The position numbers and the translations under genes are program-made. From Aestuariivivens marinum (lineage in GTDB: Bacteria > Bacteroidota > Bacteroidia > Flavobacteriales > Flavobacteriaceae): a DNA stretch of 64,000 nt. Below are positions 43,502 through 55,589 of this stretch, piece after piece. The notes under the pieces are model-generated. The model was not told the origin of the DNA, did not search any database, and was given only the letters and a program-made list of their open reading frames with translations. Every line of letters begins with the position of its first letter. Positions within the stretch are counted from its first letter, which is position 1. The stretch lies in contig NZ_JAKMCR010000001.1 of NCBI RefSeq assembly GCF_022662175.1, positions 558,001 to 622,000 of the forward strand, in the 5' to 3' direction.

Positions 43502-45400
43502 ATGAGTGATGCTTTAAAACACGAATGTGGAATAGCCGTAATTAGACTATTAAAACCACTGGAATACTATAAAGAAAAATATGGCTCAGCCTTTTATGGG
43601 GTAAACAAAATGTACCTTATGATGGAAAAGCAGCACAACAGAGGCCAAGATGGTGCTGGTTTTGCAAGCATAAAATTAAACATGAGCCCTGGCGATAGGT
43701 ACATTAGCAGGGTTCGTTCTGTACAGCAGCAACCCATTCAAGATATATTTGCTCAAATTAACGAGCGTGTTAATAATGAATTTAGAGCCCATCCCGAATA
43801 TAGTGATGACGTCGCATTGCAAAAAAAACATATTCCTTATATTGGAGAGTTATTACTAGGGCACGTGCGTTATGGTACCTTTGGTAAAAACAGCGTAGAA
43901 AGTGTGCATCCCTTTTTAAGGCAAAATAATTGGATGCACAGAAACTTAATCATGGCCGGAAACTTTAACATGACCAATGTTAAAGAACTTTTCAATAACC
44001 TTATAGAACTAGGACAACACCCTAAAGAATATACCGACACCATAACCATTATGGAAAAGATTGGTCATTTTTTAGATGATGCTGTTAGCAAAATATATAA
44101 AGACCTTAAAAAAGAAGGTTATAACAAAAGAGAGGCTTCACCGCTTATTGCCGAACGTTTAAAAGTCTCTAAAATATTAAAGCGAGCAGCTAAAAATTGG
44201 GATGGTGGCTATGCCATGGCCGGGCTTATTGGTCATGGTGATTCATTTGTGTTAAGAGATCCCGCAGGCATTAGACCTACCTATCATTACCAAGATGATG
44301 AAGTTGTTGTTGTAGCATCAGAACGGCCAGTAATACAAACCGTTTTTAATGTTCCGTTTGAAGAGGTTAAAGAATTAGATCCTGGACATGCCATTATCAT
44401 CAAAAAGTCAGGAAAAGTATCGATTAAAAAAATACTCGAACCACTAGAAAGAAAATCATGTTCTTTCGAGCGTATTTATTTTTCCCGTGGAAGTGATGCT
44501 GAAATTTACCAAGAACGAAAAATGCTGGGTAAATTATTAATGCCCAAAGTTTTGGAAGCTATTGATGAAGATACAAAAAATACTGTATTTTCATATATTC
44601 CCAACACAGCTGAGACCTCCTTTTTTGGAATGATTGAAACTGCTGAGGCCTTTATAAACAAGAAGAAAACAGCAGCTATTTTAAGTGGGCAACGTTCTTT
44701 ATCAGCGCAAAAGGTTACTGAAATACTATCAGAAAGAACGAGAGTTGAGAAAATAGCCATAAAAGACGTTAAATTAAGAACCTTTATCACTGAAGACAGT
44801 AGTAGGGATGATTTGGTAGCTCACGTTTATGATGTTACCTATGGGGTTATTAAACCCAATGATAATTTGGTCATTATCGACGATAGCATTGTTCGCGGTA
44901 CAACTTTAAAAAAAAGTATCATTAAAATGCTAGATAGGTTAAACCCTAAAAAAATTGTAATTGTTTCATCGGCTCCTCAAATACGTTATCCCGATTGTTA
45001 TGGTATTGATATGGCCAATCTAGAAACCTTAATAGCCTTTAGGGCCGCATTGGCACTTTTAAAAGACAGGAACAAATACCACGTTGTAGAAGAAGTTTAT
45101 CAAAAGTGTTTAGAGCAAACTGATTTGGCAGATAAAAATGTAAAGAATTTTGTAAAAGAAATTTACGATCCGTTTACTGATCAAGAAATATCTGATAAAG
45201 CAGCTGAACTTTTAAGCGATAAAAGCGTAAAAGCAGAGATAAAAATAATATTCCAACCTGTTGAAAATCTACATAAAGCCTGTCCAAACCACTTAGGTGA
45301 TTGGTATTTTACAGGTAACTACCCGACCGTTGGTGGAAATAGGGTTGTGAATCGCGCTTTTATCAACTTTTATGAAGGCAATAAAGAACGTGCTTATTAA
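43502..45400 (+). CDS. purF: amidophosphoribosyltransferase, long form
   Basis: The 632-residue enzyme catalyses the first step of purine synthesis. The glutaminase domain follows a short propeptide, with Cys9 in KHECGIAVIRL as the expected N-terminal nucleophile after cleavage, and QHNRGQDGAGFASI and GHVRYGTFG follow. The phosphoribosyltransferase domain has LVIIDDSIVRGTTLKKS. The protein is over 100 residues longer than the usual 470-510, with a C-terminal segment ending PNHLGDWYFTGNYPTVGGN. I believe long forms occur in other Bacteroidota. Confidence 0.92.
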   Translation: MSDALKHECGIAVIRLLKPLEYYKEKYGSAFYGVNKMYLMMEKQHNRGQDGAGFASIKLNMSPGDRYISRVRSVQQQPIQDIFAQINERVNNEFRAHPEYSDDVALQKKHIPYIGELLLGHVRYGTFGKNSVESVHPFLRQNNWMHRNLIMAGNFNMTNVKELFNNLIELGQHPKEYTDTITIMEKIGHFLDDAVSKIYKDLKKEGYNKREASPLIAERLKVSKILKRAAKNWDGGYAMAGLIGHGDSFVLRDPAGIRPTYHYQDDEVVVVASERPVIQTVFNVPFEEVKELDPGHAIIIKKSGKVSIKKILEPLERKSCSFERIYFSRGSDAEIYQERKMLGKLLMPKVLEAIDEDTKNTVFSYIPNTAETSFFGMIETAEAFINKKKTAAILSGQRSLSAQKVTEILSERTRVEKIAIKDVKLRTFITEDSSRDDLVAHVYDVTYGVIKPNDNLVIIDDSIVRGTTLKKSIIKMLDRLNPKKIVIVSSAPQIRYPDCYGIDMANLETLIAFRAALALLKDRNKYHVVEEVYQKCLEQTDLADKNVKNFVKEIYDPFTDQEISDKAAELLSDKSVKAEIKIIFQPVENLHKACPNHLGDWYFTGNYPTVGGNRVVNRAFINFYEGNKERAY

Positions 45401-45503
45401 TTTAATGATTTTTTCTAAGTTGGCATTTAATCCATAAAAAACAACATTTAAACTAAAAAAAATGCCGTTCATCTAGAAAATGAGCAATTTCTATTTTTTA
45501 GAT

Positions 45504-45511
45504 TTACTTTG
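45504..45511 (+). promoter_or_regulatory. -7-like box of small RNA copy 1
   Basis: TTACTTTG differs from TAnnTTTG at one base. It lies 5 nt before the conserved ACCATAA start of copy 1, the same distance as the exact match in copy 3. Confidence 0.5.
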
Positions 45512-45516
45512 GTATC

Positions 45517-45589
45517 ACCATAACATAAGTAGGTTAAGTTCATGGTAGATTTGGGGCAAAAAAAGGTGAACACTCGTTCGCCTTTTTTT
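45517..45589 (+). ncRNA. candidate small RNA, tandem copy 1 of 3
   Basis: This 73-nt element begins ACCATAACATAAGTAGG and continues through TTAAGTTCATGGTAGAT and TTGGGGCA. It ends in a terminator hairpin, GGTGAAC (45565-45571), loop ACTC, GTTCGCC (45576-45582), plus seven T. Two further copies follow at 206- and 420-bp offsets. The 5' part can fold by ACCAT/ATGGT pairing. A C at 45541 replaces the T of the other copies and removes one pair. No ORF of useful length runs through it. I recognise no known RNA family. Confidence 0.72.
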
Positions 45590-45653
45590 ATGCGTTTTTC
45601 CTAAAATATTTTATTCAATTCTTCCTAATCAACTTCTTTTAGCCCATATTCTT

Positions 45654-45672
45654 TTAAGCCGATATATTTGTA
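45654..45672 (+). promoter_or_regulatory. conserved upstream box of small RNA copy 2
   Basis: TTAAGCCGATATATTTGTA differs at two positions from the box at 45867-45885. Both lie 51-52 nt before the RNA core, so this may be a regulator site or simply part of the duplicated unit. Confidence 0.45.
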
Positions 45673-45690
45673 TTTCAACTAAAATATTTC

Positions 45691-45718
45691 TTGGTAGCAA
45701 AAGACTCCTATATATTCG
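45691..45718 (+). promoter_or_regulatory. promoter-like elements of small RNA copy 2
   Basis: TTG (45691-45693) is followed after 17 nt by TATATTCG (45711-45718), one base from TAnnTTTG. The same TATATTCG variant appears at the likely moxR promoter. Confidence 0.5.
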
Positions 45719-45722
45719 ATTC

Positions 45723-45795
45723 ACCATAACATAAGTAGGTTAAGTTTATGGTAGATTTGGGGCTAAAAAGGTGAACTTTCGTTCGCCTTTTTTTT
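45723..45795 (+). ncRNA. candidate small RNA, tandem copy 2 of 3
   Basis: The core is the same as in copy 1 (ACCATAACATAAGTAGG, then TTAAGTTTATGGTAGAT and TTGGGGC). Here the 5' stem is a full ACCATAA/TTATGGT of 7 pairs. The terminator is GGTGAAC (45770-45776), loop TTTC, GTTCGCC (45781-45787), with eight T. The start is set by the position of the -7-like box and by alignment with copy 3. Confidence 0.72.
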
Positions 45796-45866
45796 GTGCT
45801 TAATTTATTCATAAGTACATTTATTTAAATTAATCTGTTGTAAGGTGTTTAAAACCCTAAACCCCA

Positions 45867-45885
45867 TTAAGCCAATATATTAGTA
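45867..45885 (+). promoter_or_regulatory. conserved upstream box of small RNA copy 3
   Basis: TTAAGCCAATATATTAGTA is the partner of the box at 45654-45672. It lies 52 nt before the core of copy 3. Confidence 0.45.
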
Positions 45886-45923
45886 GTTTGCCTAAATTAT
45901 TTTATTAAACTGTCGTTATGATG

Positions 45924-45931
45924 TAATTTTG
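45924..45931 (+). promoter_or_regulatory. -7 box of small RNA copy 3
   Basis: TAATTTTG is an exact TAnnTTTG match, with the core starting 6 nt after its last base. Confidence 0.6.
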
Positions 45932-45936
45932 TCGGT

Positions 45937-46005
45937 ACCATAACATAAGTAGGTTAAGTTTATGGTAGATTTGGGGCAAAAAGGTGGACTCTCGTTCACC
46001 TTTTT
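45937..46005 (+). ncRNA. candidate small RNA, tandem copy 3 of 3
   Basis: The 69-nt copy has the same core as copy 2. Its terminator is GGTGGAC (45983-45989), loop TCTC, GTTCACC (45994-46000), with five T. Compared with copies 1 and 2, two stem positions changed (U-G to U-A, and A-U to G-U), and both still pair. Copies differ mainly in the length of the A run before the terminator. Confidence 0.72.
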
Positions 46006-46041
46006 CATTTTAATCCCCCGGAAGAAAGCCAAAAAATAGGC

Positions 46042-46071: not shown

Positions 46072-46110
46072 TATAGATTTGAAAAAAATATGATACCTTA
46101 ATAAAAAGGA

Positions 46111-46144
46111 AGCTGTCTTAATAGTTAAGACAGCCTCTTTTTTT
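46111..46144. terminator. bidirectional terminator before the sodA 3' end
   Basis: GCTGTCTTAA/TTAAGACAGC (46112-46121 and 46125-46134) is a perfect 10-bp stem with loop TAG. Runs of T follow on both strands. It ends sodA on the minus strand and any transcript from the small RNA region on the plus strand. Confidence 0.85.
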
Positions 46145-46216: not shown

Positions 46217-46825
46217 TTACTTTGCTTCAGCATAGCGTCTTTCCACTTCATTCCAATTAATCACATTAAAAAACGCTTTAATATAATCTGGACGACGGTT
46301 TTGGTAGTTTAAATAATAAGCATGTTCCCATACGTCTATACCTAAAATAGGTGTTCCACCACAACCAACACCTGGCATAAGTGGGTTATCTTGGTTTGGT
46401 GAAGAGCACACATCTACCTTACCTCCTTTATGCACACACAACCATGCCCAACCTGAACCAAAACGCGTTGCTGCAGCCTTGGAAAAGACATCCATGAAAC
46501 CTTCTTTGGACCCAAAAGCTGCTTCAATAGCATCTTTTAACTCTCCCGAAAGATAGCCCTTACCTTCGGGGTTCATTACTGTCCAAAATAAAGAATGGTT
46601 GTAAAATCCACCTCCATTATTTCTTACTGCAGCATTACCCATATCTAAATTAGCAAGTATATCTTCAATAGATTTTCCTTCTAAGTCTGTTCCTGCAATA
46701 GCATTGTTCAAGTTGTTGGTATATCCCGCATGATGCTTTGAGTGGTGTATTTCCATTGTGCGGGCATCTATATGTGGTTCTAAAGCATCATATGCATATC
46801 CTAATTCCGGTAATTCAAAAGCCAT
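46217..46825 (-). CDS. sodA: superoxide dismutase, probably manganese-type
   Basis: The 202-residue enzyme converts superoxide to oxygen and hydrogen peroxide. Metal ligands are His27 (MEIHHSKHH), His77 ([11 protein letters not shown]), Asp164 and His168 ([10 protein letters not shown]). The Gly-Gly-Gly before the second ligand and the Gln in [10 protein letters not shown] are the pattern of Mn or cambialistic enzymes rather than strict iron forms. No signal peptide is present, so it is cytosolic. Confidence 0.95.
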
Positions 46826-55515: not shown

Positions 55516-55589
55516 TGGAGAAGATCGGGCTCGAACCGACGACCTCTTGACTGCCAGTCAAGCGCTCTAGCCAACTGAGCTACATCCCC
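55516..55589 (-). tRNA. tRNA-Ala (anticodon GGC)
   Basis: The minus strand folds as a full 74-nt cloverleaf: acceptor GGGGATG/CTTCTCC, D arm GCTC...GAGC, anticodon stem CTTGA/TCAAG with loop CTGGCAG (anticodon GGC, reading GCC and GCU), and T arm GTCGG-TTCGAGC-CCGAT. The alanine identity pair G3-U70 is present and the discriminator is A. CCA is not encoded. The acceptor has a U6-U67 mismatch. Confidence 0.96.

Follow-up and report, generated by a model that had tools for sequence, protein, structure and literature searches.

A tandem array of candidate small RNA genes beside a PurF-like gene in Aestuariivivens marinum and its occurrence in the Flavobacteriaceae

On balance, we favor the reading that the DNA between a PurF-like gene and sodA in Aestuariivivens marinum carries a multicopy, independently transcribed small RNA (sRNA), found so far only in the Flavobacteriaceae, which would act by base pairing in trans and have gldL as a partner in the clade of the window (by which we mean the whole stretch of 64,000 nucleotides analyzed). 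On sequence evidence, the element is a real RNA family, and its gene anatomy, conservation, covariation, and family-wide spread can be read directly from the alignments and searches described below. To our knowledge, few sRNAs of the Flavobacteriaceae have been studied. The family accounts for a large share of the communities in soil, the sea, and fresh water and includes fish pathogens, according to the accessible part of PMC9723704.

Anatomy, structure, and surroundings of the array

As listed in Table 1, the window contains three elements of 71-73 nt arranged in tandem, all on the plus strand. The first-pass annotation of this DNA had described three plus-strand copies of about 70 nt at 45517, 45723, and 45937, each with a near-identical core and its own hairpin and T run and with diverged DNA between the copies, and the coordinates and alignments bear out each of these points. 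The spacing from copy to copy is 206 and 214. The 41-nt core is identical at 40/41, 40/41, and 41/41 positions in the three pairwise comparisons, and the similarity of the spacers, 133 and 142 nt long, does not exceed that of shuffled DNA (90 matches, compared with a shuffled mean of 86.3 and a maximum of 93). Every copy ends in a separate terminator composed of a 7-bp stem, a 4-nt loop, and a T run. The -7-like box that had been noted before the core is present in all three copies, but the gap between box and core is 4, 4, and 5 nt and not, as had been stated, 5-6 nt.

Table 1. Features of the array and its flanking genes (positions in the window)
Feature	Position	Strand	Details
PurF-like amidotransferase gene	43502-45400	+	632 aa; upstream of the array
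Conserved upstream element TTCATCTAGAAAATGAG	45468-45484	+	copy 1
-7 box TACTTTGG	45505-45512	+	copy 1; column pattern TAnnTTtG in 148 distinct upstream sequences
Candidate sRNA gene copy 1	45517-45589	+	core 45517-45557; terminator stem 45565-45571/45576-45582; T run 45583-45589
Apical stem-loop TAAGTAGGTTAA	45526-45537	+	copy 1; proposed seed, from folding, invariance, and partner site
Unpaired conserved stretch AGATTTGGGGC	45547-45557	+	copy 1; second possible seed or protein site
Conserved upstream element TTCAACTAAAATATTTC	45674-45690	+	copy 2
-7 box TATATTCG	45711-45718	+	copy 2; same 148-sequence pattern
Candidate sRNA gene copy 2	45723-45794	+	core 45723-45763; terminator stem 45770-45776/45781-45787 and T run
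Apical stem-loop, equivalent place	45732-45743	+	copy 2
Conserved upstream element TTTGCCTAAATTATTTT	45887-45903	+	copy 3
-7 box TAATTTTG	45924-45931	+	copy 3; same 148-sequence pattern
Candidate sRNA gene copy 3	45937-46007	+	core 45937-45977; terminator stem 45983-45989/45994-46000 and T run
Apical stem-loop, equivalent place	45946-45957	+	copy 3
Fe/Mn superoxide dismutase gene (sodA)	46217-46825	-	downstream of the array

The predicted fold of each copy consists of a 5' hairpin, an unpaired AGAUUUGGGGC stretch, and the terminator hairpin with its T run. Whole elements gave folding z-scores of -4.27, -3.25, and -3.10 (copies 1, 2, and 3, respectively), and the 5' part by itself, folded for copies 1 and 2 only, was not unusual (z of -0.57 and -0.10), indicating that the terminator contributes most of the folding signal. 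Under this fold, a transcript of ~72 nt (70-75 nt) would start near the ACCATAAC/GCCATAGC position and would comprise a weak 5' hairpin with the loop GUAGG, the 11 unpaired nucleotides, and the terminator.

In 148 distinct upstream sequences, the box spans positions -12 to -5, with T in 100% at -8 and G in 72% at -5; the strict form TAnnTTTG occurs in 69 of the 148 and TAnnTTWR in 134. A second block lies at approximately -49 to -34 (T in 87% at -49, C in 65% at -44, then A-rich), and a fitted two-block model placed the start of this block 36-38 bases ahead of that of the first block in 132 of the 144 sequences. We propose that each gene would have a promoter of the Bacteroidota type (-7 TAnnTTTG) and an intrinsic terminator of its own at which transcription ends, and that the shared upstream element probably binds an activator. 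When 0.86 Mb of the genome was scanned with a matrix of the upstream element, 50 sites exceeded 14 bits compared with 25-66 for 20 column-permuted matrices. Because this is not above the permuted controls, no regulator or regulon can be named.

A search of the genome with the array revealed a complete fourth copy at C5:1176610, between histidine kinase and methyltransferase genes, with a promoter-like box of its own and paired changes in its terminator stem. Overall, the genome gave six matches with covariance model R2 at E ≤ 0.01 and four with model R3 at E ≤ 1e-4. A degenerate copy of the core without a recognizable terminator, scoring 25.4 bits, lies at C5:825727 on the minus strand. Antisense strands of true copies score up to 33 and 40 bits with the models; the degenerate copy falls inside this range, and we therefore did not count it as a gene. 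Its neighbors, named by eye, are acyl-CoA ligase-like and ABC transporter genes.

Alignment A4, which was fitted to the structure, holds 150 of the 152 matches in 127 distinct rows, and in the distinct rows 98.0% of pair cells are standard pairs. In the terminator, changes on both sides were seen in 11 of 12 pairs, with 99.7% of cells paired, and 0 of 500 shuffles scored as high on any of five measures. The 5' hairpin (helix 1) is paired in 97.8% of cells and is mostly invariant in the 127 rows of this alignment; its support is thus conservation more than covariation. The hairpin was predicted in the four full-length copies that were folded, the 5' part alone being no better than shuffles. GTAGG is found in all 150 rows and GATTTGGG in 149 of the 150 aligned copies, with TAAGTAGGTTAA in 109 rows and TTAGTAGGTTAA in 34.

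A one-base insertion immediately after ATGGTA yields ATGGTAAGATTTGGG in 62 of the 150 rows, compared with 84 that have the form of our array, ATGGTAGATTTGGGG, and such a frame-shifting change within the core argues against a conserved reading frame. This bears on the possibility that the element is only a DNA repeat (mobile or REP-like) or encodes a short peptide (MVDLG...), with no RNA involved, a reading to which the copy elsewhere in the genome and the short ATG frame in some copies lend some color. We find it hardly credible in view of the terminator covariation, the -7 box at nearly every copy, the conserved locus, and the insertion just described. Further, paralogues retain position-specific variants, with 1-5 copies per locus; variant GATTTGGGAC, present in 16 copies, is the last of its array in 16/16 loci. 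The invariant core, diverged flanks, -7 boxes, covarying terminators, and varying copy number form the layout of independently transcribed sRNA paralogues, as originally suggested, and we are highly confident that the elements are independently transcribed sRNA genes, with transcription inferred in the absence of RNA data.

The Qrr and OmrA/B RNAs, which are Hfq-dependent proteobacterial RNAs, likewise form tandem or multicopy sets of near-identical sRNAs, each with a promoter and a terminator of its own. The likeness to them drawn in the first-pass annotation stands for the layout; it does not extend to Hfq (Pfam PF17209), for which our genome has no match and 5 of 14 control genomes do, and the array is without an Rfam match at threshold.

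The PurF-like protein encoded upstream of the array scores 123 bits, well below the 350 bits that NCBIfam sets as its cut-off for purF, and may represent a separate amidophosphoribosyltransferase paralogue. A strong inverted repeat (46103-46143), flanked on either side by runs of A and T, lies between the array and sodA and is probably a bidirectional terminator. Elsewhere, a tRNA gene at 55516-55589 on the minus strand is the sole Rfam gathering-level match in the 64-kb window.

Spread in the Flavobacteriaceae and comparison with described RNAs

At E ≤ 0.01, covariance model R2 gave a match in 340 of the 397 genomes sampled from the Flavobacteriaceae. By hand count, 311 of the 397 genomes matched at E ≤ 1e-8, and the weak matches in the remaining 29 may be due to chance. 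Model R3, built from 150 copies, matched 33 genomes in a phylum sample of 395 at E ≤ 1e-4. Since all 33 are Flavobacteriaceae, the RNA is restricted to this family at the sensitivity used, which was limited by the stricter filters of the R2 and R3 searches, at the cost of weak matches; eight Flavobacteriaceae genomes within the 395-genome sample gave no R3 match. With copies in about four-fifths of the sampled genomes of the family and with dosage arrays at a single conserved locus, such an RNA would qualify as a core regulator of the group.

The locus was examined in 80 named PurF-like loci (the best 80 of 593), for which 3 kb was fetched; the nearest among these best 80 were those of Algibacter luteus (90% identity) and Tamlana. 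At E ≤ 1e-8, at least one copy lay downstream of the PurF-like gene in 63 of the 80 loci and at least two in 45, with a maximum of five, so that the conserved arrays beside a PurF-like gene or sodA that the first-pass annotation had suggested looking for in flavobacterial genomes do exist. Of the 63 copy-bearing loci, 58 also have a sodA match inside the 3 kb retrieved. Four weak plus-strand matches of 26.7-35.9 bits (L096, L097, L113, and L115) were excluded from these counts. No copy was found there in 17 of the 80 loci, including those of Polaribacter, Lutibacter, Myroides, Psychroflexus, and Aequorivita, and a few of the contigs end shortly after the gene. In Allomuricauda zhangzhouensis (L096:5004-7837), the array is split by ~2.5 kb in which there are frames of 523 aa and 155 aa that look lipoprotein-like by eye.

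No described family had been recognized in the array at first, and our search of Rfam 15 (including Flavo-1) likewise gave none at the gathering threshold in the array. A literature search by sequence strings and flavobacterial sRNA terms found no description, with supplements and non-open papers outside its reach. As far as these searches go, the family appears to be absent from Rfam 15 at threshold and without a published description. Candidate sRNAs of F. columnare without Rfam matches are given in the accessible part of PMC5395568, and earlier RNA-seq studies of flavobacteria may include the family among their unnamed candidate transcripts.

The accessible part of PMC9723704 describes Rfp11, Rfp13, Rfp15, and Rfp18 of Flavobacterium psychrophilum as structured and conserved in other species; Rfp18 affects metalloprotease mRNAs, pairs through its third stem-loop, and has a predicted pairing in the intergenic region of the fpp2-fpp1 operon that is said to uncouple the two genes. 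We judge it quite unlikely, without a sequence comparison, that the array RNA is a homologue of Rfp18 (or of Rfp11, Rfp13, or Rfp15). Such a relationship would agree with the structure and conservation reported for the Rfp RNAs and with Flavobacterium-named records that carry the array RNA beside the PurF-like gene, and, like Rfp18, the array RNA is a conserved flavobacterial sRNA whose proposed site, before gldL, likewise lies between two genes. However, it has two stem-loops per copy and Rfp18, which on the portion of the report available to us uses its third for pairing, has at least three; a transcript reading through two copies would contain more than two.

We also considered whether the array RNA is a distant member of the FopS/GibS sRNA family of Bacteroides. 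FopS denotes paralogous Bacteroides sRNAs (with GibS) that pair to start regions and whose consensus has a single-stranded 5' end, as given in the part of PMC11697453 that could be consulted. Within the limits of that source, both RNAs are short, multicopy Bacteroidota sRNAs of similar size (~65 and 70 nt) with sigma-ABfr-like promoters, terminators of their own, and a conserved 5' region, and a TTCATGG..TAGATTT string is common to both. The FopS features of several copies, a length of ~65-70 nt, and a canonical sigma-ABfr promoter are matched here by four genome copies, 71-75 nt, and a TA..TTtG box; no clear -33 TTTG is seen in the alignment of 148 upstream sequences. Unlike FopS, the array RNA has a 5' hairpin with a GUAGG loop, forms a tandem array at one conserved locus, and occurs only in Flavobacteriaceae in the samples searched, and its genome has no match to RRM_1 (PF00076), which a Bacteroides control genome does match; FopS is associated with the RRM protein RbpB. 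The FopS model RF04319 scored 19.8 bits at copy 1 compared with a gathering score of 56, exceeded its cut-off in 0 of 60 Flavobacteriaceae genomes, and has two matches in our genome that lie elsewhere than the array copies. The common string is no better than expected by shuffling, as 249 of 2000 shuffled cores of our genome scored as well (84 of 2000, which is marginal, for the Maribacter type). On these grounds, together with the absence of an RRM_1 match and the different 5' end, we reject FopS membership, and even a distant kinship, already mostly refuted, is very improbable.

Proposed base pairing and gldL as a target lead

We think it probable that the array RNA acts by base pairing, most likely in trans. 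The best mechanism that we can offer, which is predicted and not shown, is that of an independently transcribed base-pairing sRNA with the apical loop UAAGUAGGUUAA as its seed. The loop GUAGG would nucleate the contact and the 3-bp UAA/UUA stem would then open to give a duplex of ~12 bp. The first-pass annotation had placed the seed in the unpaired UUUGGGG. This segment may still be a seed, but its complements, like seed complements as a whole, were not enriched in a k-mer scan of the leaders of 720 genes (~27% of the genome), and it is the apical loop that has the better-supported partner.

Of the perfect complements of the two conserved segments, CCCCAAATC occurs at 34 sites in the genome compared with 15 for the reversed control, and TTAACCTAC is rarer than its reversed control (27 compared with 88); four sites of each are antisense to sRNA copies. 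Among the 30 CCCCAAATC sites read, 18 have their largest overlapping frame on the opposite strand. For the loop, the 12-mer TTAACCTACTTA is found four times outside sRNA-like copies: in two sense leaders, one in the gap before gldL and one ahead of a gene for a 465-aa protein that looks FG-GAP-like by eye, and twice antisense to long frames. When up to three mismatches are allowed, the full 18-nt antisense has six sites in the genome compared with 3 for the reversed control: each of the four sRNA copies, an unclassified place on C7, and a 3'UTR. Targeting of start codons by this antisense was rejected as a general mode. The 10th and 36th best duplex energies of the core beat 20 of 20 shuffles over the leaders of the same 720 genes, an excess that is, in our opinion, partly caused by -7 boxes such as TAAATTTGCC in short leaders and of which we made no use. 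The leader of a 249-aa protein was unsupported as a target: the CCCCAAATC site is present in our genome and, at a different place, in the nearest orthologue, which makes 2 of the 29 leaders read (22 of 80 genomes have a homologue of the protein), and a conservation test like that applied to gldL failed.

The best-supported partner in the window's clade would be UUAACCUACUUA, 43-51 nt upstream of gldL, in the gap between this gene and the one before it, which, from gene order and by eye, we take to be gldK. GldL itself was confirmed by TIGR03513 (228.5 bits; cut-off 68.3). A 12-nt complement lies 44 nt upstream of the gldL start, with the site at -43 to -51, and the predicted pairing has a net gain of -17.0 kcal/mol in our genome with the terminator intact. 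In a ranking of 719 leaders (~27% of the genome), gldL was 3rd for structure-corrected pairing and 10th for shuffle-corrected duplex energy. We note that gldL was picked after the match in our genome had been seen.

The gldL leaders of 41 genomes were read (30 and then eleven more). UUAACCUACUUA, whole or in at least 10 nt, is present in 10 of the 41, and four further leaders (L307, L312, L319, and L331) keep the pairing through G-U; none of the eleven leaders read later has the site. Taken together, 14 of the 31 genomes whose sRNA match reaches E ≤ 1e-8 have the site, compared with 0 of the 10 genomes that lack so strong a match, of which four have weak matches (one-sided probability of 0.0075, not corrected for kinship). 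The best ungapped helix averaged -16.8 kcal/mol over 13 near gldL orthologues compared with -10.5 for shuffles (0/60) and -12.8 compared with -10.8 (1/60) over 17 far orthologues; among the latter are L322, whose leader has the site exactly, and L326, whose genome lacks the sRNA. The same ungapped test gave 12/60 for the 249-aa protein, 7/60 for purF, 39/60 for sodA, 58/60 for pfkB, 6/60 for a helicase, and 19/60 for 100 random leaders. With gapped duplexes, gldL differed from shuffles by -7.9 to -8.7 kcal/mol compared with -0.7 to -2.9 kcal/mol for all controls and -0.9 to -2.9 kcal/mol for the four control genes among them, the duplexes having long internal loops and leaning on the ATGGC start. 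The real core also beat shuffles on 120 random leaders (0/60) and gave 1/60 for coding-sequence pieces and for the leaders of the 249-aa protein, purF, and pfkB. As the gapped test is thus also positive on control sets and discriminates poorly, we relied on the ungapped test.

Overall, gldL is our best target lead, standing above shuffled and gene controls but limited to one clade and chosen post hoc, and that it is a genuine target in the window's clade is possible but somewhat doubtful. Transcription, the base-pairing mode, gldL as the target, and the direction of any effect are all inferences made without RNA data. Pairing at the leader would be expected to change the translation or stability of gldL relative to the preceding gene and, if true, would link the sRNA to the type IX secretion and gliding machinery. 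Several gldL leaders (e.g. L302, L303, L306, L310, and L313) carry a short hairpin, TTAAGTn..nACTTAA, whose loop-side letters appear by eye to vary in concert and which, on the same visual impression, is a leader RNA element in its own right; with this hairpin beside it, the conservation of the gldL site may have another cause.

The site is missing from 17 of the 31 sRNA-bearing genomes. Pairing at gldL is therefore not the family-wide function of the RNA and cannot explain the invariance of the core. CsrB-type RNAs titrate a protein by dosage, and the near-invariant core of the array RNA (the GUAGG loop and AGAUUUGGGG) could similarly be the site for an RNA-binding protein that the copies titrate. 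The presence of GTAGG in every aligned copy and of GATTTGGG in nearly every one and the amplification to five copies fit a dosage-dependent role, and the genomes without the gldL site call for another, universal function. We nevertheless regard protein titration as unlikely: the GATTTGGGAC variant is kept by array position and the leader partner site is retained through G-U changes, both of which point to base pairing, and no candidate protein is known.

The most far-reaching form of the base-pairing proposal is a family-wide sRNA system without an Hfq or RRM chaperone, in which the GUAGG loops of the tandem paralogues control the type IX secretion and gliding motor at the gldL leader and a second seed reads further, paralogue-specific targets; as a whole, we hold this to be speculative and rather unlikely. 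Bacteroidetes mRNAs lack Shine-Dalgarno sequences, as stated in the accessible part of PMC7366714. The array RNA would make sRNA action without Hfq, an RRM protein, or a Shine-Dalgarno sequence testable.

Two further places in the genome are recorded here as observations. The strongest predicted pairing of the 719 leaders (-20.8 kcal/mol net) is that of an 88-aa cysteine-containing protein at C5:1003124 (minus strand), and a match to the FopS model, C5:1003114 (plus strand), lies at the same place on the opposite strand. At C5:1657044 (minus strand; L043/L241), TACCCCAAATCTACCATTAAC, a near-perfect complement of the unpaired stretch, lies just before the terminator in the 3'UTR of a 429-aa protein that, by eye, ends like a type IX secretion sorting domain, and this 3'UTR site is a possible sponge or target.
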